From: Candidatus Poribacteria bacterium
Lineage (GTDB): Bacteria; Poribacteria; WGA-4E; WGA-3G
Reading direction: 5' to 3'
Assembly: GCA_028821605.1 (NCBI GenBank)
Contig: JAPPFM010000044.1
Coordinates: 1-64,000, forward strand
DNA: 64,000 nucleotides
Both the position numbers and the translations under genes were made by a program. The notes below the pieces were generated by a model that saw only the letters and a list, made by a program, of their open reading frames with translations, searched no databases and was not told the DNA's origin. Every line of letters starts with the position of its first letter. Within the stretch, counting starts at the first letter, position 1. Of the stretch, positions 8,280-56,282 are shown piece after piece.

Positions 8280-8306
8280 GAGCAGAGCACTACTCACATT
8301 TATGAA

Positions 8307-8334
8307 GGCGAGGATACAATCCTCGCCAGCAGCG
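8307..8334. repeat. GCGAGG palindromic repeat
   Basis: Same arms as the copy at 8253 (GGCGAGGAT/ATCCTCGCC), then AGCAGCGG. The pair is separated by sequence containing ACTACTCAC; a GCTACTCAC follows this copy, so the duplicated unit is about 54 bp. Confidence 0.75.
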
Positions 8335-8364
8335 GTGAGAGTGCTACTCACTGGGAATTTGAGT

Positions 8365-8394
8365 TTGACAGCCCTCCGACCTTTGTGATAAAAT
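8365..8394 (+). promoter_or_regulatory. Promoter for lpd
   Basis: TTGACA, 18-bp spacer, TAAAAT. Transcription would start near 8401, which supports ATG 8424 rather than any start further upstream as the lpd start. Confidence 0.65.
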
Positions 8395-8423
8395 TCAATT
8401 CATCTTACAAAACAGGAGCAATC

Positions 8424-9809
8424 ATGTCTATGTATGATGTTGGAATTATCGGTGGGGGACCAGGGGGGTACGTTGCAGCTATTAAAGCGGCGCAACTCGG
8501 TGGCAGTGTCTGCCTGATAGAAAAAGGGGAGTGGGGTGGGACCTGTCTGAATCGAGGGTGCATCCCAACAAAAACGCTTTTTGCGGTTGCCAACCTTGCG
8601 ACACAGGTTCAGGAAGCATCTGCCTTCGGTATACATATCGGTGGTGAAGCAACAATTGACTACGCGCAGGTATTAGATCACAAAGCCTCTGTCATCAAGC
8701 AACTGACAGGAGGTATTGCGCAACTGCTGAAGGCAAACGGGGTTGATACCTTCAACGGAACAGCGACACTTACTGACAGAAACAGCATTGTCGTCAGCAA
8801 ACCTGATGGGACAATCGAGCCATTGCACGCGAAAAATATTATTATTGCTACGGGTTCTGAACCCGCAGAACCACCCATCTTTGACATCGACGAGGAGCAG
8901 GTCTTGACGACGACAGGAATTCTCAACCTTACAGAACTTCCTGAGAGTCTTTTGATTGTTGGCGGTGGCGTTTCAGGTTGTGAGTTCGCTTCCATCTTTA
9001 GTGCTCTCGGATGTCAGGTGACCGTGCTGGAACTCCTCCCGACAATTTTGGCGACTGAAGACCTCCAGGTTATTCGTCATATCCAACTCTTTATGAAGCG
9101 AAAAGATATCACGATCCACACCGGTGCGAAACTTACCCATGTCAAAAAATCGGAAGCAGGTGTCACTGCAGTGCTTGAATCTGGCGAAGAACTTGCGGCA
9201 GAAAAGATGCTCGTCTCGATTGGGAGACGCTACAATACAGAAAACATAGGATTGGAAGCGGTTGGTGTCCATACCGCGGATGGAAAAATCGTTGTGGACG
9301 CACAGATGCAGACGAACCTTCCGGGTATTTACGCGGTTGGAGATGTCGCGAGTCGGTACTTGTTGGCACATGTCGCATCGACAGAGGGGAAGGTTGCAGC
9401 GCAGAACTGTCTTGGTGACCGCGTTGAGATGGATTATCAGGTTGTCCCGTGGTGTGTTTTTACCTTACCAGAAATTGGACATGTCGGTATGACGGAAAAA
9501 GAGGCAACAGATGAGGGTTATGAAGTAAAGGTAGGACGATTCCCATACGCTGCAAACGGGAAGGCATTGGGATTAGGTGAAACGGATGGGTTTGTTAAGA
9601 CCGTTTCTGATGTTGAGAGTGGGGATATTCTGGGGGTTCATATCGTGGGTGCGCAGGCATCAACCCTTATTCATGAAGCAGCAGTCGCAGTGCGTTTAGG
9701 GGCTTCTGCTGAAGATATAGCACACACTGTTCACGCACACCCAACCCTCTCAGAAATGGTGATGGAGTCCGCTGAAGCAGCGTACGGTAGGGCAATTCAC
9801 AGTTTGTAG
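8424..9809 (+). CDS. lpdA: Dihydrolipoamide dehydrogenase
   Basis: 461 residues, class I flavoprotein disulfide reductase. FAD-binding GIIGGGPGGY is at the N-terminus. The redox-active disulfide is in GGTCLNRGCIP, NAD(P)-binding VGGGVSGCEF is near residue 180, and the C-terminal His-Glu catalytic pair is in HAHPTLSEMVMES. It reoxidises dihydrolipoyl groups of 2-oxoacid dehydrogenase or glycine cleavage complexes. No E1, E2 or Gcv genes are adjacent, so its complex is encoded elsewhere. Start chosen from AGGAG 7 bases before ATG and from the promoter position. It is a single-gene unit ended by a palindromic repeat. Confidence 0.95.
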   Translation: MSMYDVGIIGGGPGGYVAAIKAAQLGGSVCLIEKGEWGGTCLNRGCIPTKTLFAVANLATQVQEASAFGIHIGGEATIDYAQVLDHKASVIKQLTGGIAQLLKANGVDTFNGTATLTDRNSIVVSKPDGTIEPLHAKNIIIATGSEPAEPPIFDIDEEQVLTTTGILNLTELPESLLIVGGGVSGCEFASIFSALGCQVTVLELLPTILATEDLQVIRHIQLFMKRKDITIHTGAKLTHVKKSEAGVTAVLESGEELAAEKMLVSIGRRYNTENIGLEAVGVHTADGKIVVDAQMQTNLPGIYAVGDVASRYLLAHVASTEGKVAAQNCLGDRVEMDYQVVPWCVFTLPEIGHVGMTEKEATDEGYEVKVGRFPYAANGKALGLGETDGFVKTVSDVESGDILGVHIVGAQASTLIHEAAVAVRLGASAEDIAHTVHAHPTLSEMVMESAEAAYGRAIHSL

Positions 9810-44029: not shown

Positions 44030-44503
44030 TTAGGATTCGTCAGCAATATCCGCTCCGCATTGCGGACAGATATCGCCCCACGTTGAACGCTTGCCCTCGC
44101 CACAAACATCGCAGACACCAAGAGGATACTCATCAGGTTTCGCTCGACTGCCACCTTTCTTGTAGGTGATGATACGCCATACCGTTTCGCCATCCTCTTC
44201 ATAGCAGAGCCAGACCCCCTCTTTTCTGCCATCGGCGGAGCTGCCATCGTGTTCCCGATAGGGACCACCCCATTTACGATTGCCGTTCTCGTAATAGCAG
44301 ATATAATCGCCTTCGTTCTTGCCGGCTCGGAAGGAGGCTTCGCTCGCTTTGTTCCCATTTTTGTGATATTGGATCCAAAGCCCTTCTTTCTTCCCTTCAA
44401 TGTAACGACCTTCGCTCCGTTTGTGTCCGTTTGCGTAGTAGGTGACCCAATAGCCGTGTTTTTTGCCGTCGACCATTTCACCTGTATCTCGTGAACTTGC
44501 CAT
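44030..44503 (-). CDS. MORN-repeat protein with C-terminal zinc ribbon
   Basis: 157 residues. Four or five MORN/YwqK-like repeats (GYWVTYYANGHKRSEGRY, GLWIQYHKNGNKASEASF) occupy about 8-115. The tail is a zinc ribbon with CDVCGEG and CPQCG. It is a paralogue of the product of 47685-48161, and a decayed third copy lies at 45946. The ATG at 44503 matches the paralogue's start and follows GAGG by 7 bases; the ATG 3 bp upstream is too close. MORN repeats of this type are known from YwqK antitoxin-like proteins, but no toxin partner is seen. Confidence 0.8.
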   Translation of the reverse strand: MASSRDTGEMVDGKKHGYWVTYYANGHKRSEGRYIEGKKEGLWIQYHKNGNKASEASFRAGKNEGDYICYYENGNRKWGGPYREHDGSSADGRKEGVWLCYEEDGETVWRIITYKKGGSRAKPDEYPLGVCDVCGEGKRSTWGDICPQCGADIADES

Positions 44504-44543
44504 CATTTACCTCGTGTGCGGAATAGAAATGTCTGTCCGCTTG

Positions 44544-45008
44544 TTACAAATCTTCATTATTAAGGTATGCCTCAAAATTTTCTATCGTTTTCTTACCGAT
44601 GCCCTTGACCCCTTTCAGTTTACCTTCATCAATTGCTGTTCGGAGCGATAAGAGACTGTCAACACCCGCCTCCTGATACAAGAGTTTAATCGTTTTAGCA
44701 CCGAGTCCTGGGATAGGCATAAGTTCAACAATTGTCTGCGGGACGTTACTTGCGTGTTCCTGTAATTTCGAGCACGTTCCGGTTTCAACGTATTCAGTGA
44801 TGATCGTAGCGACTATATCTCCAACGCCTGCAATCTCCTCTTTCAACCGTCCTTGCGCGACCAATTCCGCCACAGATTCCTCCATGCGAGAAATTGTATA
44901 CGCTAAACGCGGGTAGCGCGTTGCATGGTCTTCCGGATAGTCAGCGACAATCAAAATAGTATGAAGTTCCATCAGTTTCTGTGCGATTTCATCGTTGGTC
45001 AGTCCCAC
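44544..45008 (-). CDS. Stand-alone PolX-N-like helix-hairpin-helix protein
   Basis: 154 residues. It resembles the N-terminal 8-kDa and fingers regions of family X DNA polymerases: helical TRYPRLAYTISRMEESVAEL, then HhH LMPIPGLGAKTIKLLYQEAG and HhH LKGVKGIGKKTIENFEAYL. There is no polymerase palm or PHP domain. It probably binds DNA. The start is GTG 45008, with GAGGTGA 5 bases upstream; a longer frame starting in the CCTAC hairpin repeat has no site. A paralogue is at 50963-51481. Confidence 0.78.
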   Translation of the reverse strand: MGLTNDEIAQKLMELHTILIVADYPEDHATRYPRLAYTISRMEESVAELVAQGRLKEEIAGVGDIVATIITEYVETGTCSKLQEHASNVPQTIVELMPIPGLGAKTIKLLYQEAGVDSLLSLRTAIDEGKLKGVKGIGKKTIENFEAYLNNEDL

Positions 45009-45047
45009 GGTATCACCTCGTTTCGCTGGTTCAATTAAAGGATTTTC

Positions 45048-45072
45048 GGGCATCCACAAGGGATGCCCTACA
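45048..45072. repeat. Hairpin repeat ending CCTAC
   Basis: GGGCATCC and GGATGCCC around ACAAG, then TACA. It closely matches the copy at 52575. Confidence 0.65.
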
Positions 45073-45096
45073 GTTAGAAAGTCGCGGAGATCGCTC

Positions 45097-45870
45097 CTAC
45101 CTTTTTATTTCCCCCCAAGTCGTTGTTAATTTACCAACGGGTGAAACAGCGAGGGCTTTCTCAAGTCCTTCCTCCATGACGGTACTTAAGTCGTCTTCAC
45201 TAAGCGGTGCATTGAAGATAGCGACTTCGTCAAGGACTCCCTTGAAATCCCATCCTGCTCCACCTTTCCAGCGGGTTAGCCAGATGGAACCACCATCGTG
45301 CTGCTGACTGAAACTTGGTTTGCCCACCTTCAAATCTGCGACGACTTCGCCATCGACATAGAGAGCAAGCGTTTTACCGTCGTGGGTTAAGGCGACAAAA
45401 CTCCATTCATCCATTTCCCATGTTCCGCCCCGGACTTGGCTGTTATCTATCGCACCGTTGAATAGGAAACTACCGTAGAAGTCGGTTTGCCCGATAAGAA
45501 TATTTGGATTGTGCCAATCCCTCTCTATCAATCGGACGTGGGGACCTGAAGGATTACCAAGCGGTTTCACCCAGAGCAGATATGTAAATCCGTCAAGGAA
45601 ATCATCTGTCGTCTCGCTGGCTGGGATAACCACATGACTGCTCCCATCAAATTCGATACCCATGCCTTCTTTTCCTTCGACCCGTTTAGCATCAACGATT
45701 TCACCATCATTACCGTTCGGAGAGGAATCTTTAACCGTATCCCCTTTCCCCTGATCAAAGTGCCACATTCCCATAAGGGACTCTGGATCAATTTCCGATG
45801 TGCTTTCCTGAACCCACATCGCTGAAATAAAGAGTACTATCATAGCAACCAAAGTAATTAGGACTCTCAT
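45097..45870 (-). CDS. Secreted LamG-like (concanavalin A-fold) protein
   Basis: 257 residues. Signal peptide (about 1-20), then a LamG/pentraxin-like jelly roll (about 35-235): MGMWHFDQGKGDTVKDSSPN, GNDGEIV, the DGFTYLLWVKP strand, WSFVALTHDGKTLALYVDG and GVLDEVAIFNAPLSED. It probably binds carbohydrate or another extracellular ligand. The last 11 residues KLTTTWGEIKR match the tail of the unrelated secreted protein at 40420. AAGGAG precedes ATG by about 11 bases. Confidence 0.82.
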   Translation of the reverse strand: MRVLITLVAMIVLFISAMWVQESTSEIDPESLMGMWHFDQGKGDTVKDSSPNGNDGEIVDAKRVEGKEGMGIEFDGSSHVVIPASETTDDFLDGFTYLLWVKPLGNPSGPHVRLIERDWHNPNILIGQTDFYGSFLFNGAIDNSQVRGGTWEMDEWSFVALTHDGKTLALYVDGEVVADLKVGKPSFSQQHDGGSIWLTRWKGGAGWDFKGVLDEVAIFNAPLSEDDLSTVMEEGLEKALAVSPVGKLTTTWGEIKR

Positions 45871-45945
45871 CGTTTTTAGTCTCCTTTTTTAAGAGTTATC
45901 AGTAGGCGTTTGGGGTAGTTCCGTTTCCTTTGAATACCACAAGCA

Positions 45946-46105
45946 TTACTGACAACTGTCAAGAACATTCAGTTCGGTACCACATCTTGGACAGGTATTG
46001 TCCCATTTCAAACGTCTGCCTTCACCACAAACATCACACACACCGAGTGGGAATTCGTCCCGTTGGAATGTAGACTTTGGGGCGATTCGCTCCTCAAGTG
46101 GTGTG
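45946..46105 (-). pseudogene. Decayed third MORN/zinc-ribbon copy
   Basis: On the minus strand the frame ending TAA at 45946-45948 reads DEFPLGVCDVCGEGRRLKWD and then NTCPRCGTEL, nearly identical to the zinc ribbons of the genes at 44030 and 47685. Upstream of about 46105 the frame meets a stop, and all MORN repeats are missing. So only the last 50 or so codons survive. Confidence 0.8.
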
Positions 46106-46326
46106 TCTTACATTTTATAAACAGAAGAAAAAAGTCGTCAATTTCGCAGAAAAGTGATACAATACGCATAGAAAATTCCTTGCGTGAGGATGCAAGTTAT
46201 TTCATTATACCAAAGGGATTTTCTTTCTACCACACTTTTATGGGTCTCACGCAGAAATTTTCAGTTGTCAGGTAAATTACAGTAAAATCTACTGCTCTGT
46301 CAGATTTCAAATGACGGATAGAAATC

Positions 46327-46347
46327 GCGAGTAAAACTCGCTCCTAC
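46327..46347. repeat. Hairpin repeat ending CCTAC (short copy)
   Basis: GCGAGT and ACTCGC around AAA, then TCCTAC. Confidence 0.5.
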
Positions 46348-46431
46348 ACAAAGATATTATGTTTCTTGCGAAATCTACATCCCTCAAATAGATAGTGCCA
46401 AAGCACTACAATCAATTAGACATTGACGATA

Positions 46432-46449
46432 GGCGAGGTTACAAACCCT
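46432..46449. repeat. Partial GCGAGG repeat
   Basis: GGCGAGGTTACAAACCC matches the left arm and loop of the repeat at 9813; the right arm is degenerate. Confidence 0.5.
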
Positions 46450-46496
46450 TCCTACAAGAACGTTCACAAAATGGCAACTTGTGTTAGGATATTCCA

Positions 46497-47642
46497 ATGA
46501 CGTATCAACCCCTTGCTGAAGTACGAAAAGTGCTTCGTGTAAAATGGTACCGGAGCAAAATAGATCACACAACCTTACGGAATCTATCAAAACGGAGTGA
46601 CCTGCAAGGTTGGTTTCAGGCAGGCGGGCATTTTGCTCTCTGGCTATTGACGGGTAGCTTGGTCTACTTCCTTTGGTCACAAGCGATGTGGCTTGGCTTT
46701 TTGATTGCGCTATTTGTGCATGGCACGGTCGCCAGTTTTTTCAAAGGGACAGCCAATCATGAATTGGGACACGGCACTGTATTTCGTACCAAGTGGTTGA
46801 ACAAATTTTTTCTTTACCTATTGAGTCTCATAAGTTGGTGGGACCATTTTGACTACGCCAGTAGCCACACCTACCATCACCGTTACACCTTATATCCTGA
46901 AGGGGATCGCGAAAACCTTCTCCCACTTGAACCCAAACTCGGTTCCCTGTTCGTTCTTCAACTGTTTACCATAAATTTGCTCACGCAACCCGGTCGCACC
47001 TTTAGCAAAGGTGGGTTGATTGCTGCAGTTATCTGCACGATCCGTAGTGCCTTTGGTAAAGAAGGACCGCCAGATATTCCGAGTCAGGAATGGCTGGCAT
47101 CATTACATGCCGACCAACCCGCAGAGCATAAAAATTCGATTTGGTGGTCTCGGATTCTACTCCTTTTTCACGGCACGCTGCTTGTCGTTTCACTCGCCAC
47201 GGGTTATTGGGTTTTCCTGCTCATCATCACTGCCAGCGCATTTATTGCAAACTGGGGATCTTATGCTGTTTCTATGCCCCAACATTGTGGTCTAAAGGAA
47301 AATGACCCTGACTTCCGCAAATGCACACGGACAATCACACTCAACCCTCTTGCAGAGTTCTTGTATTGGCGTATGAATTGGCACATTGAGCATCATACGT
47401 TTGCAGGAGTGCCTTGCTACAATTTGAAAAAATTGCATTATCTGGTTGCCGAAGATATGCCCGAACCGCGCACACTTTTAGGAGCTTGGCGAGAAATGCG
47501 CGAAACTTGGCAACGACAGAAAACTGATCCTGACTACTTTTTTGATACACCGCTGCCGCCAACGGCTCAGTATATCCCCACCGAAACACCCGATACGCTG
47601 GAAAGTTCCATTGGGGAATTGGCACCGAAAGGGTTGAAATAA
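46497..47642 (+). CDS. Membrane fatty acid desaturase
   Basis: 381 residues. Four or so hydrophobic helices in two pairs (about 45-85 and 215-260) and the three His boxes of integral-membrane di-iron desaturases/hydroxylases: HELGH, HTYHH and HIEHH. The SMPQHCGL block before the last box is typical of the FADS superfamily. It inserts a double bond or hydroxyl into a lipid chain, with electrons from a ferredoxin or cytochrome b5-like donor not seen here. It is the only plus-strand gene in 35-58 kb and stands alone. Confidence 0.9.
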   Translation: MTYQPLAEVRKVLRVKWYRSKIDHTTLRNLSKRSDLQGWFQAGGHFALWLLTGSLVYFLWSQAMWLGFLIALFVHGTVASFFKGTANHELGHGTVFRTKWLNKFFLYLLSLISWWDHFDYASSHTYHHRYTLYPEGDRENLLPLEPKLGSLFVLQLFTINLLTQPGRTFSKGGLIAAVICTIRSAFGKEGPPDIPSQEWLASLHADQPAEHKNSIWWSRILLLFHGTLLVVSLATGYWVFLLIITASAFIANWGSYAVSMPQHCGLKENDPDFRKCTRTITLNPLAEFLYWRMNWHIEHHTFAGVPCYNLKKLHYLVAEDMPEPRTLLGAWREMRETWQRQKTDPDYFFDTPLPPTAQYIPTETPDTLESSIGELAPKGLK

Positions 47643-47684
47643 GGCGACTATAAATCTTATAAGTAGCAACTTAGATTATCTAAC

Positions 47685-48161
47685 TTACATTAATAATGGA
47701 GCCAGTTCGTTACCGCACTTCGGACAGGTATTGCCCCACGCCAAACGTCTGCCTTCGCCGCAAACGTCGCAAACACCGAGCGGATATTCATCCGGCTTCG
47801 CGCGACTGCCACCCTTTTTGTAGGTGACGATTAGCCACATTGTCTCGCCATCCTCTTCGTAACCGTAAAACGGACCTTCCTTTTTGCCATCGTAAGATCT
47901 ACCCTCATGTTTGGGATAAGCCCCCGTGGATCTGAGGTTCCCGTTTTCATGATAGGTTATGCAAGGACCTTCGTATTTGTTATCGCGGAAGGAGGCTTCG
48001 CTCGCTTTGTTCCCATTTTTGTGGTAAGTGATCCAGGGTCCGTCCTTCTTACCATGGATGTAGGCACCTTCGCTCCGCTTATGTCCGTTCGCGTAGTAGG
48101 TGACCCAATACCCGTGCTTTTTGCCATCAACCATTTCGCCGGTTGTTAATGAATTTGCCAT
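47685..48161 (-). CDS. MORN-repeat protein with C-terminal zinc ribbon (paralogue)
   Basis: 158 residues. Same architecture as 44030-44503: TTGEMVDGKKHGYWVTYY, MORN repeats to about residue 115, then YKKGGSRAKPDEYPLGVCDV and a second CxxC. The first 45 and the 100-140 region are almost identical to the paralogue, while the middle repeats have diverged. Start ATG 48161 follows AAGGA by about 13 bases in the CCGCAAGG leader also seen before iolD. A longer frame would translate a repeated leader block and is rejected. Confidence 0.8.
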   Translation of the reverse strand: MANSLTTGEMVDGKKHGYWVTYYANGHKRSEGAYIHGKKDGPWITYHKNGNKASEASFRDNKYEGPCITYHENGNLRSTGAYPKHEGRSYDGKKEGPFYGYEEDGETMWLIVTYKKGGSRAKPDEYPLGVCDVCGEGRRLAWGNTCPKCGNELAPLLM

Positions 48162-48222
48162 TTTTCTAATTTTCCTTGCGGTTAAACAACACAGGTTTGA
48201 ACTCTGATATTCCGTTCTTAAG

Positions 48223-48249
48223 TCCGCTCTCCATTTCATTATGAGCTAC
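48223..48249. repeat. 27-bp repeated leader block, copy 2
   Basis: Partner of 37435-37461 (25 of 27 identical), about 60-90 bp upstream of the MORN gene start. Confidence 0.65.
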
Positions 48250-48351: not shown

Positions 48352-49173
48352 TTAGATGTCGCTGGTGAGTATGAAACCCCAATCCCACTTCTCCATACGA
48401 TGATGAACCACTGTGGCTGTGGCTGATGGGTAAATCGCTTGGAACTCCAGCACCTCAAGTAGTGGGTGATTTACCGAAACACAGAACATGTGGACATAAT
48501 CCTCAAGCGGTTCGGGATGTCCCTGCTCTGCACACGGCCCGAACTGAACGTGTAAGAGCGGCATCGCGGAACGTGTGCTTTGCAGAACGATGTCCTTTTT
48601 TCCTTTCAATGACAAATAAGAGACGCTCCCAAAGTGTTCTCGCAAGATTGGCTCAACTTTTCGCATGCTCTCAGCATCTAAGGAAACGATTCCTAACTTC
48701 GTTGCGATGGACATCGGTGCAAGTGGAAAACGTTTTAGCATGCGCGCAACACGGTTCGGACGTTCGCTGTCCGCATCCATGGAGATGGCATACGCGCGAG
48801 AGGAGAGCGGATACAGTTTTGGAAAGGCATGGACGAATATTGAGACAGGGAGATACCGTCCTTGGTAGTCAGGATGAACTTTCAAGTCACAAAGATACCA
48901 TACCGTCTTCGGCTTTTCACGGCTTGCAGGCGGTACACGGCGTAAGATCGCAGCAGCTACCGCTACCACCCGATCACCGTCAAGCGCAACATAGTAATGA
49001 AGCTGCCCCAGCCGTGTGAAGAATGCGAAGTAATCCTCACCGTGGTCAATCTCAAATCGGTCTTCACCCAGTGGATAACTCGTTCCCTTTTCTAAACCCG
49101 CGATCCGAGATTGGAAAACTTTCCACTCCTCATTATATAATTCTCTGATATTTAAAGAACGGTTCATCCGCAT
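48352..49173 (-). CDS. GNAT-like acyltransferase
   Basis: About 273 residues. The central part has the GNAT core: HYYVALDGDRVVAVAAAIL, then WYLCDLKVHPDYQGRYLP, where beta-4 and the acyl-CoA loop should lie; the Q-x-x-G/A loop is atypical. The C-terminal 100 residues are not recognised. It is the last gene of a three-gene unit with the heme-oxygenase-like and DUF3419 genes; its GAGGT ribosome site begins about where the upstream stop ends. Starts at 49173 and 49167 are both possible. An N- or O-acyl transfer onto a product of its partners is a fair guess. Confidence 0.7.
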   Translation of the reverse strand: MRMNRSLNIRELYNEEWKVFQSRIAGLEKGTSYPLGEDRFEIDHGEDYFAFFTRLGQLHYYVALDGDRVVAVAAAILRRVPPASREKPKTVWYLCDLKVHPDYQGRYLPVSIFVHAFPKLYPLSSRAYAISMDADSERPNRVARMLKRFPLAPMSIATKLGIVSLDAESMRKVEPILREHFGSVSYLSLKGKKDIVLQSTRSAMPLLHVQFGPCAEQGHPEPLEDYVHMFCVSVNHPLLEVLEFQAIYPSATATVVHHRMEKWDWGFILTSDI

Positions 49174-49190
49174 CCGACACCTCAAGGCTG

Positions 49191-49904
49191 TTACGATGCC
49201 CGTGTATGCGGTCCGCGCACATCGCGATAGATGCGACGCTTTCGTGCCTTGTAAAGCCCTTCATATAGCGAATTGAAGACGCACGCGCCGAGACGCAATC
49301 CCTGTTCAATGTAGTATCTATTTTCGACATCCGCGTCCCAAGCAGGACGGAGTACATCAAAGAAATCGTCTGCATGTTTAATATCAAGGTCTTCATGAAG
49401 ATTATAATGAATCAGTTTTTCCGCAGGCATCCAGCCATGATTGACAACCTGTTCTCCGAGCCATCCAGCAATGTCCGAGAACATCCGCTCAATGATTCCC
49501 ATGACACCAGCACCAATCAAGTACTCATCCATCACGCACGCACCCACAAGCACTGTATTAAACGCTCGAACTTCGGGCCACATTGCACGTTTCGCAATAT
49601 CTTCCGGTTTAATGCCAGCCAACCGGTCAAGAAAGGCGAGAAATGTTTTCTCGTGCATGAGTGATGTGTTACCTTCACCGTGTTCTTCCCAAACATTACG
49701 AATGACCTCTAAACGTAATTCTGACGTTGGGATCTTGGCGGCGAGTGCTGCCATCGGGCGGTTGAAGAACACGACGGCAAAATAGAATTGGATTTGGGTT
49801 TCGACAAAATCATCGAAATCAAAAGTATCGTCGCGTAAAGATTGAAAGTACGGATTCATCCATACATTCGTCTCTTTTAGGATGTTGTCAATGGTTATGT
49901 TCAT
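49191..49904 (-). CDS. Heme-oxygenase-like di-iron (iron-containing redox) enzyme
   Basis: 237 residues, all-helical TenA/PqqC/HDO fold. Candidate metal ligands follow the HDO pattern: Glu and His in NVWEEHGEGNTSLMHEKTF, Glu in MDEYLIGAGVMGIIE, and His/Asp/His in HYNLHEDLDIKHADDFF. Known members oxidise fatty acids or amino acids (UndA, BesC, SznF-type), often in specialised metabolism. It is preceded by a DUF3419 gene whose stop is 6 bp away and followed by a GNAT gene 17 bp on, a tight operon. AGGAG is 5 bases before ATG. The substrate is unknown. Confidence 0.82.
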   Translation of the reverse strand: MNITIDNILKETNVWMNPYFQSLRDDTFDFDDFVETQIQFYFAVVFFNRPMAALAAKIPTSELRLEVIRNVWEEHGEGNTSLMHEKTFLAFLDRLAGIKPEDIAKRAMWPEVRAFNTVLVGACVMDEYLIGAGVMGIIERMFSDIAGWLGEQVVNHGWMPAEKLIHYNLHEDLDIKHADDFFDVLRPAWDADVENRYYIEQGLRLGACVFNSLYEGLYKARKRRIYRDVRGPHTRAS

Positions 49905-49910
49905 CGGCTC

Positions 49911-50879
49911 CTATCTCCTTTTTCCGACATGAACGCTCGAATAAAACAAGCTGCGTTCGGTTTCTTGGAATCGGACTCCCAATGCCGCATTAAACTCGAA
50001 TGAATCGCCAAAGTAGGTTGAAAGATCGGTGTAATTATTGAGTTGGCGATACAGAACGTTCGCGCCAGGTTTCATCTCATTTTGAAGATAGCTGATAAGG
50101 GAGACAATCTCAGCTAACGGCATCCAATCCATGATATTGGAGAGAGATATTAGATCAAAACGTTGCAGCTCCGGCACCTGATCCAGTGTACCTTCGATCA
50201 TCTGAAAACGGTAATCCATAGACGGAGCTAAGAGATAGTAGGGTAGGCTCGCCGGGCGTTGGAGATAGTATCCAAGAAACACATGGTGAAGAAAGTAATT
50301 ATCGAACGCTGCCGTAGATGTCAACCCCTTTTCAAATAACGTCTGAAAGTAACGCGGATAACTCCCCGCTTCAGCGTGCTGTGTAGCATCCGGACCGAAC
50401 ATCGCATTCAGAAGGGAATCGCTAAAGTAGAGATCAAATGCCACTGACCAATACTTGCTTGAGAAGAGGAGCTCCGAGACCTCGGCAAGCCGATCTTTCT
50501 CTTCAAACAATCTGCGGATTTCTGCTTCGTCAGCAACCAAATCAAAGATAAACGCTCGTAAACCGCGGAATAGCGACTCAAAGTTACCACTCTGATTGAG
50601 TCCTTTTGGATCGCTGGTCCCAATATTAAATCTCCGATGACGTGTGGCTGTATCAACATCACGCAGTGCATTCATTTTTTCGCGAACTCGTTCTAACTGC
50701 GCCGGATTAAAATCAACCAGAGTAATATGCACATCGGGAAATAGTGCTTGCAGTGTTAAGGCAGTGCACCCACCGGAAGCGACTAACAACACGTTAGAGG
50801 CTCTGGTCAGACGAATCAACTCCGCTTCGACCATCGGATCTTCTCTGACGACCGCAAACTGGACCTTATTATTCCACAT
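49911..50879 (-). CDS. DUF3419/BtaA-like SAM-dependent transferase
   Basis: 322 residues. Opens with the DUF3419 pattern VQFAVVREDPMVEAELI, then the Rossmann motif VLLVASGGCTALTLQAL and VDFNPAQLERV. BtaA, the best-known member, transfers the 3-amino-3-carboxypropyl group of SAM to diacylglycerol in betaine-lipid synthesis. The partner BtaB methyltransferase is absent. First gene of the operon with an HDO-like oxidase and a GNAT. Start ATG 50879 has GGAG 9 bases upstream; a GTG 15 bp earlier has none. Lipid or small-molecule aminocarboxypropylation is the working guess. Confidence 0.8.
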   Translation of the reverse strand: MWNNKVQFAVVREDPMVEAELIRLTRASNVLLVASGGCTALTLQALFPDVHITLVDFNPAQLERVREKMNALRDVDTATRHRRFNIGTSDPKGLNQSGNFESLFRGLRAFIFDLVADEAEIRRLFEEKDRLAEVSELLFSSKYWSVAFDLYFSDSLLNAMFGPDATQHAEAGSYPRYFQTLFEKGLTSTAAFDNYFLHHVFLGYYLQRPASLPYYLLAPSMDYRFQMIEGTLDQVPELQRFDLISLSNIMDWMPLAEIVSLISYLQNEMKPGANVLYRQLNNYTDLSTYFGDSFEFNAALGVRFQETERSLFYSSVHVGKRR

Positions 50880-50962: not shown

Positions 50963-51481
50963 TCACAATACTTCATCAAGGTACGCTTCAATTTTCTCTA
51001 ATGTTTTTTTACCGATGCCTTTGAAACCTTTTAATTTCCCTTCATCAATTGCTGCTCGGAGCGAGACGAGGCTATCCACACCGACTTCTTCATAAAGTCG
51101 CTTAATCGTTTTGGCACCCAATCCGGGTATAGGTACAAGCTCCACAACCGTTCGCGGTGTATCACCGGCGAATTCTTCCAGTTTTGCGCTCGTGCCAGTG
51201 TTCAGAAATTCCTCAACGATTTTCGCCACGACTTCGCCAGCCGCTGGAATCTCCTCTATTAATCGTCCTTGGGCGATGAGATCCGACATCGGTTCGGGAA
51301 AACGAGAGATATAATTCGACAACCACGGATATCGCGAGGCGTGCTCTTCTGGATAGTCGGCGATAATCAAAAACGTATGAAGTTCCAAGAACTTTAGCGC
51401 AATTTCATCATTTTGATGCCAGCGCGTTCGCCCTTTTGCATCAATGTAAGATCCTTCTTCTAAGTCTTTTTCATCGCTCAT
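50963..51481 (-). CDS. Stand-alone PolX-N-like helix-hairpin-helix protein (paralogue)
   Basis: 172 residues. Same fold as 44544-45008: ADYPEEHASRYPWLSNYISR, GRLIEEIPAAGEVVAKI, HhH LVPIPGLGAKTIKRLYEEVG and HhH LKGFKGIGKKTLEKIEAYL. No polymerase or PHP domain. GGAGG lies 7 bases before ATG and is inside the end of the WD40 gene, which this gene overlaps by 11 bp, so the two are coupled. The last 70 residues are much more conserved between the two paralogues than the first 30. Confidence 0.82.
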   Translation of the reverse strand: MSDEKDLEEGSYIDAKGRTRWHQNDEIALKFLELHTFLIIADYPEEHASRYPWLSNYISRFPEPMSDLIAQGRLIEEIPAAGEVVAKIVEEFLNTGTSAKLEEFAGDTPRTVVELVPIPGLGAKTIKRLYEEVGVDSLVSLRAAIDEGKLKGFKGIGKKTLEKIEAYLDEVL

Positions 51482-52683: not shown

Positions 52684-54432
52684 CTATTCATAGAGGTCCG
52701 TGGCGGTTTCGCCTCGGGCGAAACGGTGGGCCGTCTGGACAGCGGAATCATTTCCAGCGTTTCTGCGAATATCCGTTGCCCACCGTGCCAACCCAACGAT
52801 CAGCTGATTTCTGGCAGGATGCGTCTCACACGTTTTCCATTCCTCAGACACGATGTAAATTGAGCTGAGGAGGTCCCCGCCGTTATCATCCTTGAGGATA
52901 CATAATCCCATTTCAGTCATTAACCGCTCCGCGGAGCACCCAGCGTTGAGATATTCACGGGTACGCCGTCCAATTTCCTGGATGCGAACAGATTCAATAC
53001 CATCTAAAATTTCGGCAATCGCCGCGTCTTCATCAAGAGAAACAGACGTTGTAGATGTTCTTGCTTCTGTAATCGATTGATGGCGGATGTTAAGCCATCG
53101 GTTGTTGAAAAACCGCCATGCAGCGTGGTAGAGTGCCATCGCGGCGACTTTGGTTCCGCCGAAGCGAAGCACCTTCCTCACCGCTGATGAAAGCTCCATC
53201 TCTTCCTGCAGATCCCACCACCCCGGACTCATGTTCACGGGTGTGCGTGCCATCCGATCCGCTGCCGTCATAACCATAGTCGTAGCCAACGTGTTAATCG
53301 GGACACCCGCAGTGAGCATTTCCGTTACGGCATCAAAAACTTCGTCGAGATCACCACTCACGAGCGCTGCTGAAAACTTGTCTTCGTCGTAATCAACAGC
53401 CGCTGCGGTTGATTTTTCTTGCGGAAGTTCATCAAAAATATGATCAATTTCTTCCAGTTTTTGAATGGCTTCACGGTGAAGTTCTCCGGGTCTACCGCGT
53501 CCCTGTCCAAGAATCTTTGCGCCGAGACTGCAAACTAACTCACCTGTTAGTTCCCATCCAAACTCTTCTTGCAATTCAGCCAAGTGTACGAGATTAATGA
53601 GATTGTTGGAATGGTTGAGGAAGAAGGATTCGACTGCACACTCAAAGAAAAGCGGAATGATTTTCTCATCATGTCCGCCTAACTGTCTGGCGGTGATAAG
53701 ACATTTTTCAATACCTTCCCACTCTTTATCGGTGGTGAACACCCGAATCCAGTCTTCGAGTTTCTGCCAGTCAATCGGTGGTGGGAGCGGTCGTCGATCG
53801 GGTCGATCGCCAAGTCTACCCGATGCTCCATCGGCAGCCATCATCAATGGGATGAGTCGGTCTTCAGGTTCGTACAACCGAGCGACCTTTACCCCGTTCA
53901 TCATCATTGCCAATTTTCTGCCACCCTCGAACGCTCCCCTATCTGTAGAGATATGTCGTCCCATGTGCCTCACCATCAGGTTCAACGTTTCCTCTTCCGA
54001 AACGCCCCTCGCTAACATAATGGCAATAGCTTTAGAAAGCGTCCAATTGTCGGTGGAGAGTAACCCTTCTTTCAGCAGGAGAAAATGGGCATCGTCTCGC
54101 TTCTTTCCACCACTGGCGACATCTACATAGATATCACCGTTGCGAACTTCAACAGGAAACGTGGCGAGGTCATCACAACCGCCCGTAAAGCAGCCGCCAC
54201 CTTCCATGTCGTAACTCCAACCGTGCCAATCGCAGGATAAAACACCCTTTCTGACACGTCCTCGGACGAGCGGGTACCCCATGTGCGGGCACTGGTTATC
54301 CGTGGCGTAGACGGCACCTTCATGCTGAAAGAGGGCAATACTATGTCCTTCAACTCTGACTGCCCTCGGTTTTCCCTCTGCTATATCATCAAGGGCAGCG
54401 ACTTTGACGAAATTGGTATTCTCGTTTAACAT
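52684..54432 (-). CDS. Rieske [2Fe-2S] protein with long helical domain
   Basis: 582 residues. N-terminal Rieske ferredoxin domain (about 8-105): cluster ligands in CPHMGYPL and CDWHGWSYD. The rest (about 115-582) is helical with no known catalytic motif that I can see; conserved spots include FFECAVESFFLNH and TPVNMSPGWWDL. It is a tandem paralogue of the gene at 54478, 45 bp upstream. Unlike Rieske oxygenases it lacks the mononuclear iron 2-His-1-carboxylate domain of the usual layout, so an electron-transfer or unknown redox role is likely. GGAG is about 11 bases before ATG. Confidence 0.85.
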   Translation of the reverse strand: MLNENTNFVKVAALDDIAEGKPRAVRVEGHSIALFQHEGAVYATDNQCPHMGYPLVRGRVRKGVLSCDWHGWSYDMEGGGCFTGGCDDLATFPVEVRNGDIYVDVASGGKKRDDAHFLLLKEGLLSTDNWTLSKAIAIMLARGVSEEETLNLMVRHMGRHISTDRGAFEGGRKLAMMMNGVKVARLYEPEDRLIPLMMAADGASGRLGDRPDRRPLPPPIDWQKLEDWIRVFTTDKEWEGIEKCLITARQLGGHDEKIIPLFFECAVESFFLNHSNNLINLVHLAELQEEFGWELTGELVCSLGAKILGQGRGRPGELHREAIQKLEEIDHIFDELPQEKSTAAAVDYDEDKFSAALVSGDLDEVFDAVTEMLTAGVPINTLATTMVMTAADRMARTPVNMSPGWWDLQEEMELSSAVRKVLRFGGTKVAAMALYHAAWRFFNNRWLNIRHQSITEARTSTTSVSLDEDAAIAEILDGIESVRIQEIGRRTREYLNAGCSAERLMTEMGLCILKDDNGGDLLSSIYIVSEEWKTCETHPARNQLIVGLARWATDIRRNAGNDSAVQTAHRFARGETATDLYE

Positions 54433-54477
54433 TGTATACTTCTCCTCTGTTGCGCGACTTAGTTTGTTGGGTAGAGC

Positions 54478-56214
54478 TTACTCCTCAAAAACCTCAATCG
54501 TTGTTCTACCTTCGGCGAAACGCATCGCGGTCGTCGCCGCAGACTTGTTGTCAGTGTTTGATCGGATATCTGTGACGTAGCGAGCCAACCCGACCAACAA
54601 CTGAGGCTGCGCCGGATGCCCTTCCGCATGCTTCCACTCTTCAAACACGGTGCGTAGTGTCGGCAGCACTTCACTCCCTGTATCATCCCAAAGCACCGTA
54701 TGCCCTATCTCTTCGAGCAATCGTTCAGCAGAATAGCCAGCATTTAGATAGCCAAGCACCTGTGGTCCCACACTTTGGACATCAAGGGTCTCGATTGTAT
54801 CAATAATGTGCTTGATACCCTCGGCTTCATTCGGAGCATCCAATCTCTCTTGGCTCAGCGGTTGGCTGAGTGCTCGTGCTGGAATGTTTATCCAGCGATC
54901 CGCGAAGATTTGCCACGCAACGTGGAAAATCCCTTTCGCTGCGACTTCATTGCCACCCACTCGTTGTGCACTCCGCAATGATGCGGCAAGGTTGAATTCC
55001 GTGGTTAAGTTCTCCCACCCCGCGTCTACATTCACCGGTGTGTTCGCCATTCTATCTGCAGCGAGAAGGACAAGCGAGGTAATAAGCCTTTCTAACTTAA
55101 CACCATCAGTTAAGACTGCTTGTACTGCCTCAAACGACCGCTGGAGATTAACACTCGTGAGTGCTTCAACGAAAGCGTCTTCGTCAAATTCAGAGGTTTG
55201 CTCCAAGGTAGCATCCTCAATGGTGGGAAGCATCTGACGCATGAGTTGAATTGCGTCTCTGCGGTATCGCTCTGGCTCATCCGGGTGATGTCCGACGAGT
55301 TGTGCCCCAAGATAGAAGAGCAGTTCTGAGGCGCGTTCCCACCCAAATTCATCAATCACCTCTGAAAGATAACTGACATAGAGCGGAATATGGGGTGCAT
55401 CGATAAAATGCGGTTCGACTGCACACTCAAAGAGTAGCGGACACAATTTATCTGCGTCCCCTTTGTTATATGCGGTAAACAAGCATCGTTCAATTCTTCC
55501 GGACTGTCCTTCATAAGAGAAATTACGAACCCATCGACTTATCTTCTCCCAAGCGACCGGTTCAGGCAACGGTACAACTTCGAGTCGCTCCGATGCGGGT
55601 CCAGCAGCAGAACAAGCGGCAGTCGTAACAGCGATGAGTCTATCAGCATCCGTATATCTACGTCCGACTTTGAGTCCATTGATGAGTCGGGAGACATCGC
55701 CGCCGCCTTCTGATCCGTGGGAACTAGCGATGTGACGGCTGACGTGTTCCAAGATTGAACCCATCACCTCTTCTTCCGGCACGCCACCTTTTAGCAATAG
55801 CGAAATCGCTTTGGACATCGTCCATCGGTCTTCGCTCAAAAGCCCTTCTCGGAGCAATTGTTTATGTTCTTCGGCGCGTCGGTAGATCAAATCTCCGGGT
55901 TCTATCCAAATTTCATTGCCTCGGACCTCAACGGGAAAGACGCGCAAATCATCGCATTCAACATGGAAGCAGCCACCGCCTTCCAAATCGAAACTGCGGC
56001 GGTGCCAATCACATGTTAGGATGCCGTTGCGAACGGTTCCCCGTGTGAGTGGATACCCCATGTGTGGACACTGGTTATCCGTCGCATAAATTTTTCCATC
56101 AACGTTGAAGAGTGCAATACTGCGCCCCTCTCCCATCTGAATCGCTTTCGGTTGCCCTTCAGGAACTTCACTTAACTCGGCGACTTTCACCCAGTTTTGT
56201 GTTTGATGCTCCAT
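54478..56214 (-). CDS. Rieske [2Fe-2S] protein with long helical domain (paralogue)
   Basis: 578 residues. Rieske ligands in CPHMGYPL and CDWHRRSFD, then a 450-residue helical region aligned with that of the downstream gene (LFECAVEPHFIDAP; TPVNVDAGWENL; EEWKHAEGHPAQPQLLVGLA). The shared tail ends in a VTDIRSNTDNKSAATTAMRF-like block in both. GGAGG lies about 11 bases before ATG 56214. First gene of the Rieske pair, expressed from the promoter at 56283. I do not recognise the helical domain. Confidence 0.85.
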   Translation of the reverse strand: MEHQTQNWVKVAELSEVPEGQPKAIQMGEGRSIALFNVDGKIYATDNQCPHMGYPLTRGTVRNGILTCDWHRRSFDLEGGGCFHVECDDLRVFPVEVRGNEIWIEPGDLIYRRAEEHKQLLREGLLSEDRWTMSKAISLLLKGGVPEEEVMGSILEHVSRHIASSHGSEGGGDVSRLINGLKVGRRYTDADRLIAVTTAACSAAGPASERLEVVPLPEPVAWEKISRWVRNFSYEGQSGRIERCLFTAYNKGDADKLCPLLFECAVEPHFIDAPHIPLYVSYLSEVIDEFGWERASELLFYLGAQLVGHHPDEPERYRRDAIQLMRQMLPTIEDATLEQTSEFDEDAFVEALTSVNLQRSFEAVQAVLTDGVKLERLITSLVLLAADRMANTPVNVDAGWENLTTEFNLAASLRSAQRVGGNEVAAKGIFHVAWQIFADRWINIPARALSQPLSQERLDAPNEAEGIKHIIDTIETLDVQSVGPQVLGYLNAGYSAERLLEEIGHTVLWDDTGSEVLPTLRTVFEEWKHAEGHPAQPQLLVGLARYVTDIRSNTDNKSAATTAMRFAEGRTTIEVFEE

Positions 56215-56282
56215 GGTTTTACGTTCCTCCAAATTGTGTTTCGCATACCTTAATTTCAACAAAAACTTAACGACTATAAAGC

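Follow-up and report, generated by a model that had tools for sequence, protein, structure and literature searches.

A conserved gene trio of a DUF3419 protein, a heme-oxygenase-like dimetal oxidase and a GNAT-fold acyltransferase, a candidate new pathway in Poribacteria and other bacteria

Introduction

In the open-access literature that was found, proteins of the DUF3419 family are tied solely to betaine-lipid (DGTS) synthesis, in which BtaA moves the 3-amino-3-carboxypropyl (acp) group of S-adenosylmethionine (SAM) onto diacylglycerol and BtaB methylates the resulting head group. Acp transferases of natural-product pathways act on amines, lipids and other acceptors, and BtaA is reportedly not homologous to nicotianamine synthase or CntL, which transfer the same group in metallophore synthesis (PMC10491745).

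The heme-oxygenase-like dimetal oxidases (HDOs) are represented by HrmI, CADD/NePabS, BesC, FlcD and UndA. According to a review of the family (PMC13108848), validated functions are known for only about a dozen HDOs, the substrates of these are mostly amino acids and fatty acids, and the 3H/3C set is the majority ligand type; the sections consulted describe no DUF3419 partner for an HDO.

The locus considered here places a DUF3419 gene, an HDO gene and a GNAT-fold acyltransferase gene side by side. Among the open-access papers searched, neither a description of this trio nor any report linking DUF3419 with heme oxygenase-like proteins or with a gene cluster was found, DUF3419 being named in just four of them, and the pathway is apparently undescribed.

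Results

The trio locus

The window, meaning the whole stretch of 64,000 nucleotides that was analysed (positions 1 to 64,000 of contig JAPPFM010000044.1, assembly GCA_028821605.1), comes from the 5.99-Mb genome of a sponge-associated Poribacteria bacterium, in which the trio copy of DUF3419 is the only one. All three genes lie on the minus strand, with 6 and 17 nt between them. The DUF3419 gene (49911-50879; PF11899, 1.1e-25) encodes a BtaA-related, SAM-dependent protein of 322 aa, predicted by homology to be a 3-amino-3-carboxypropyl transferase; it is followed by the HDO gene (49191-49904; Haem_oxygenas_2, PF14518, 2.9e-18) and by the gene for the GNAT-fold acyltransferase of 273 aa (48352-49173). 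The first-pass annotation had named these three genes and their tight spacing, and the open reading frames and Pfam matches agree with it. At the DUF-HDO junction (49905-49930, minus strand), the AGGAG Shine-Dalgarno of the HDO gene, read directly from the sequence, falls within the last codons of the DUF3419 gene, a position that suggests translational coupling; the same gap is short in nearly all Poribacteria loci.

The assignment of the third protein depends on a weak match to Acetyltransf_1 (PF00583; 2.1e-4, 22.0 bits, barely above the 20.7 cut-off) together with YPLG and DHG motifs that are conserved across phyla. Its C-terminal half is conserved and lacks a domain assignment, and a sequence search of the PDB returned nothing useful for it. 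Translation may start at the ATG at 49173, which the alignment favours, rather than at the alternative TTG at 49185.

Around the trio, the Poribacteria flanks (helix-hairpin-helix, WD40, Rieske and MORN proteins) vary, are lineage-specific and derive from families repeated in these genomes. In the window, the MORN-repeat and helix-hairpin-helix proteins at 44030-48239 and 50963-51481 are such repeated paralogues, and a neighbouring pair of Rieske-domain proteins at 52684-56262, each about 590 aa long and with a long C-terminus that has no domain assignment, recurs near the trio in Poribacteria. A fatty-acid desaturase gene at 46497-47642 was considered as a further member and rejected, as it lies on the opposite strand and is not conserved beside the trio.

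Distribution and co-occurrence

Intact DUF3419 genes were found in 18 of 60 genomes of Poribacteria relatives, and the HDO in exactly those 18. Every intact-DUF3419 locus on a long enough contig has the order DUF-HDO-GNAT on one strand; all complete relatives keep the three genes together, so that their adjacency cannot be put down to chance. Profile sampling of 343 Planctomycetota genomes recovered 17 with the trio-type DUF3419 and 17 with the HDO, 16 being common to both, while in 284 Myxococcota genomes the two sets, of 15 each, are identical. Across the 687 genomes of these three phyla, both proteins occur in 49 and each alone in 1 (Fisher p = 8.6e-73, which expresses strength of association only, because the sampled genomes are related and kinship inflates significance). 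The two planctomycete exceptions, G130 with the DUF3419 only and G278 with the HDO only, are both at contig ends, and in G278 a GNAT fragment adjoins the HDO. In four planctomycete genomes of one lineage that have no local HDO, the HDO is on a separate contig; DUF and GNAT are still adjacent in three of them, and in the fourth (G255) no GNAT was detected on the short contig that bears the DUF3419 gene.

A genome scan placed the trio in Planctomycetota, Oligoflexales and Deltaproteobacteria as well (DUF identity 44-55%), and a plasmid search added a Mycobacterium riyadhense plasmid on which DUF-HDO-GNAT is followed by an RND transporter gene and adjoins recombinases (HDO 35% identical over 212 aa; DUF 25%). 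In at least five bacterial phyla, the three genes are present or absent as a set. Sequence distances are correlated between partners (DUF-HDO 0.75, DUF-GNAT 0.71). Two gene orders recur, DUF-HDO-GNAT and DUF-GNAT-HDO, beside a few rearranged loci, so the trio has been retained through shuffling. Profile searches found no viral relatives of the DUF3419 protein, nor was a phage relative found for the HDO. One record in the set titled Klebsiella pneumoniae behaves as Myxococcota, its phylum sample being that of G062, and is probably a mislabelled metagenome-assembled genome.

Genes in distant loci were called with a simple codon-usage program. In an all-versus-all comparison of called genes, the families of the trio were the only large groups: no fourth family recurs across loci, and neither BtaB nor another methyltransferase is a recurrent partner. 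The trio has RND/MMPL genes next to it in two distant carriers, a planctomycete and the M. riyadhense plasmid.

The oxidase

The structure model of the HDO (pLDDT 89.5) has the heme-oxygenase-like seven-helix fold. Its best matches are CADD (Z 26.5, rmsd 1.9 over 212 residues), HrmI (23.5), BesC (22.1) and UndA (19.8), with FlcD also matched, at sequence identities to solved members of about 12-19%. The closest PDB sequence is HrmI in a single-sequence search (3.3e-6) and CADD in a profile search. Profile alignment to CADD and HrmI predicts six metal ligands, E74, H84, E139, H170, D174 and H177, all of which are invariant among 43 HDO sequences, one of them truncated before E139. This is a 3H/3C set, and in both fold and ligand set the protein resembles HrmI, CADD/NePabS, BesC, FlcD and UndA, among which FlcD is the mononuclear exception; the site is probably a di-metal, di-iron one. 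The spacing of 10 between the first glutamate and histidine ligands equals that of E143 and H153 in DtpC. This Acinetobacter HDO was considered as an analogue of the trio and set aside, its operon containing katE and not DUF3419.

On Streptomyces plasmids (about 8292-9690 in the extracted loci, L059-L061), an EF-hand protein is paired with an HDO that shares about 60% identity with its mycobacterial counterpart, and no DUF3419 is annotated within 9 kb. These HDOs indicate that the family is not bound to the trio pathway everywhere.

The DUF3419 protein

In a maximum-likelihood tree of 76 DUF3419 proteins, all trio-type sequences group in a single clade of 40 members (ultrafast bootstrap 100, SH-aLRT 97), opposite 36 others that include Rhizobium BtaA, whose gene overlaps one for a class I SAM methyltransferase in the BtaB arrangement. 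The trio clade shares with BtaA the core residues E13, D14, G37, D56, G98, N194, G272 and Y313; it has invariant residues of its own, among them E101, F104, N248, D251, W252 and R278, and many positions outside the SAM core are replaced. Because the core is shared and the clade has its own invariant set, we infer that SAM chemistry was kept and the acceptor side changed. Rhizobium BtaA also has about 35 extra N-terminal residues, with its WED motif at residue 49, whereas the corresponding ED of the trio clade is at 13.

An AlphaFold2 model built from a 13-sequence alignment (pLDDT 90) shows a class I SAM fold that matches SAM methyltransferases in general. PDB sequence searches gave nothing useful, and a Foldseek search with the model gave nothing at E <= 0.001, nicotianamine synthase and CntL being among the weak matches only. 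These metallophore enzymes resemble the trio protein in their SAM-dependent class I fold and, presumptively, in acp transfer, but neither an opine dehydrogenase nor another recurrent partner was found at trio loci. A metallophore pathway argued from homology to them was discarded, the fold matches being weak.

A parallel cassette and other DUF3419 loci

At a myxococcal locus (L161:8540-11415) and a Poribacteria locus (L227:9385-14940), a DUF3419 protein of the other clade has two proteins close by, one GNAT-like and one of PF11266, the long-chain fatty aldehyde decarbonylase family of ferritin-like di-iron proteins; at L227 the matching segments are spread across several reading frames. A ferritin-like di-iron protein in the place of the HDO speaks for a di-iron O2 step as an inherent part of the arrangement, and if the trio and this cassette work alike, one class of di-iron enzyme would have taken the place of the other. 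Known N-oxygenases occur in both classes (PMC13108848).

Loci L161 and L162 were examined as trio variants and rejected, since the tree places both in the other DUF3419 clade. Other-clade DUF3419 genes also occur with PEP/pyruvate-binding (PPDK-like) proteins (L162:7027-12474 and L179:523-8507), with UbiA and AMP-binding proteins (L179, the same interval) and with MMPL transporters (L162 and L233); these loci possibly represent another uncharacterised pathway.

Discussion

The first-pass annotation had read the trio as a candidate new pathway distinct from ordinary betaine-lipid synthesis, a reading to be given up if the three genes seldom met in other genomes or if the HDO had lost its metal ligands; neither proved to be the case. 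The near-perfect co-occurrence of its genes in other genomes, the invariance of the HDO ligands and the separation of its DUF3419 clade from BtaA, with no BtaB nearby, all support that reading. The trio retains from the BtaA/BtaB system a DUF3419 domain and the SAM core residues, but it differs in clade and in having an HDO and a GNAT as partners. In siderophores, hydroxamates are assembled by an N-hydroxylase, which is a flavoenzyme, and a GNAT acyltransferase. The trio likewise pairs an oxidase with a GNAT-fold acyltransferase that would act later, but its oxidase belongs to the HDOs, not to the flavoenzymes, and it has in addition a DUF3419 protein that uses SAM.

The three genes very probably serve one pathway. 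In the chemistry proposed, the DUF3419 protein would bind SAM and move an acp group, rather than a methyl group, onto an acceptor; the HDO, with its di-metal site and O2, would oxidise the resulting amino acid or amine, most likely by N-hydroxylation or N-oxygenation as in HrmI; and the GNAT would acylate the amine or hydroxylamine to an N-acyl or hydroxamate-type product, which in some hosts an RND/MmpL transporter may export. N-oxygenation is not singled out by the structural comparison, because CADD, a pABA synthase, and BesC, which cleaves a C-C bond, are about as close to the HDO as HrmI is. This particular sequence, N-oxygenation followed by N-acylation of a small molecule to a soluble acylated product, is put forward tentatively, at somewhat short of an even chance.

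Its main rival is a lipid product. The DUF3419 protein could have kept the acceptor class of BtaA, diacylglycerol or another lipid alcohol, and form an ether-linked homoserine lipid, whose head group the HDO and GNAT would oxidise and N-acylate in place of BtaB methylation, giving a new non-betaine amino-lipid. The exclusive association of DUF3419 with betaine lipids in the literature found speaks for this, as does one myxococcal locus in which DUF-GNAT-HDO is followed, with overlapping genes, by a fatty-acid desaturase gene and one for a PAP2 phosphatase. UndA, itself an HDO, uses fatty acids, and the parallel cassette has a di-iron protein similar to fatty aldehyde decarbonylase. MmpL-type transporters, moreover, often export lipids. 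The trio clade, however, lacks the N-terminal extra of Rhizobium BtaA and is changed at many positions outside the SAM core, and no lipid gene was found to recur across trio loci. A lipid product is considered unlikely, though a serious contender. A further version dispenses with the acceptor: the DUF3419 protein would cyclise or cleave SAM to a small amino acid such as azetidine-2-carboxylate, homoserine lactone or similar, or would methylate, and the HDO and GNAT would then oxidise and acylate that amino acid. SAM-cyclising enzymes with a methyltransferase fold are known (PMC10491745), amino acids are HDO substrates (PMC13108848), a small molecule needs no more than three enzymes, and the trio clade kept its SAM core while changing elsewhere. 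Yet BtaA is an intermolecular acp transferase whose common residues the clade retains, and the DUF3419 family offers no tested precedent for acceptor-free chemistry, which makes this version improbable.

That the genes share no pathway, and are found together by accident or because one mobile segment carries them all, is already contradicted and is given very little credence. The patchy distribution, the recombinases beside the mycobacterial plasmid copy and a block loss in Poribacteria could be read this way; in the last case a deletion in a closed chromosome (L047, 8001-8585) has removed the HDO and most of the DUF gene, and the 32 DUF residues that are left run into a truncated GNAT. Two gene orders, five phyla and correlated divergence stand against it, and hitchhiking would not have retained the unlinked HDO that is still present in four genomes.

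The wider proposal, that SAM aminocarboxypropyl transfer, HDO oxidation and acylation yield a new class of metabolite in Poribacteria, Planctomycetota, Myxococcota, Bdellovibrionota and on a mycobacterial plasmid, with a parallel version employing a ferritin-like di-iron enzyme, is judged to be evenly balanced. Across phyla, one DUF3419 clade is bound to the same two partners, an O2-activating di-metal enzyme and an acyltransferase, and a pathway of three enzymes with no recurrent helpers would be cheap to reconstitute. Such a pathway would give BtaA-like enzymes an added role and HDOs a new reaction context.
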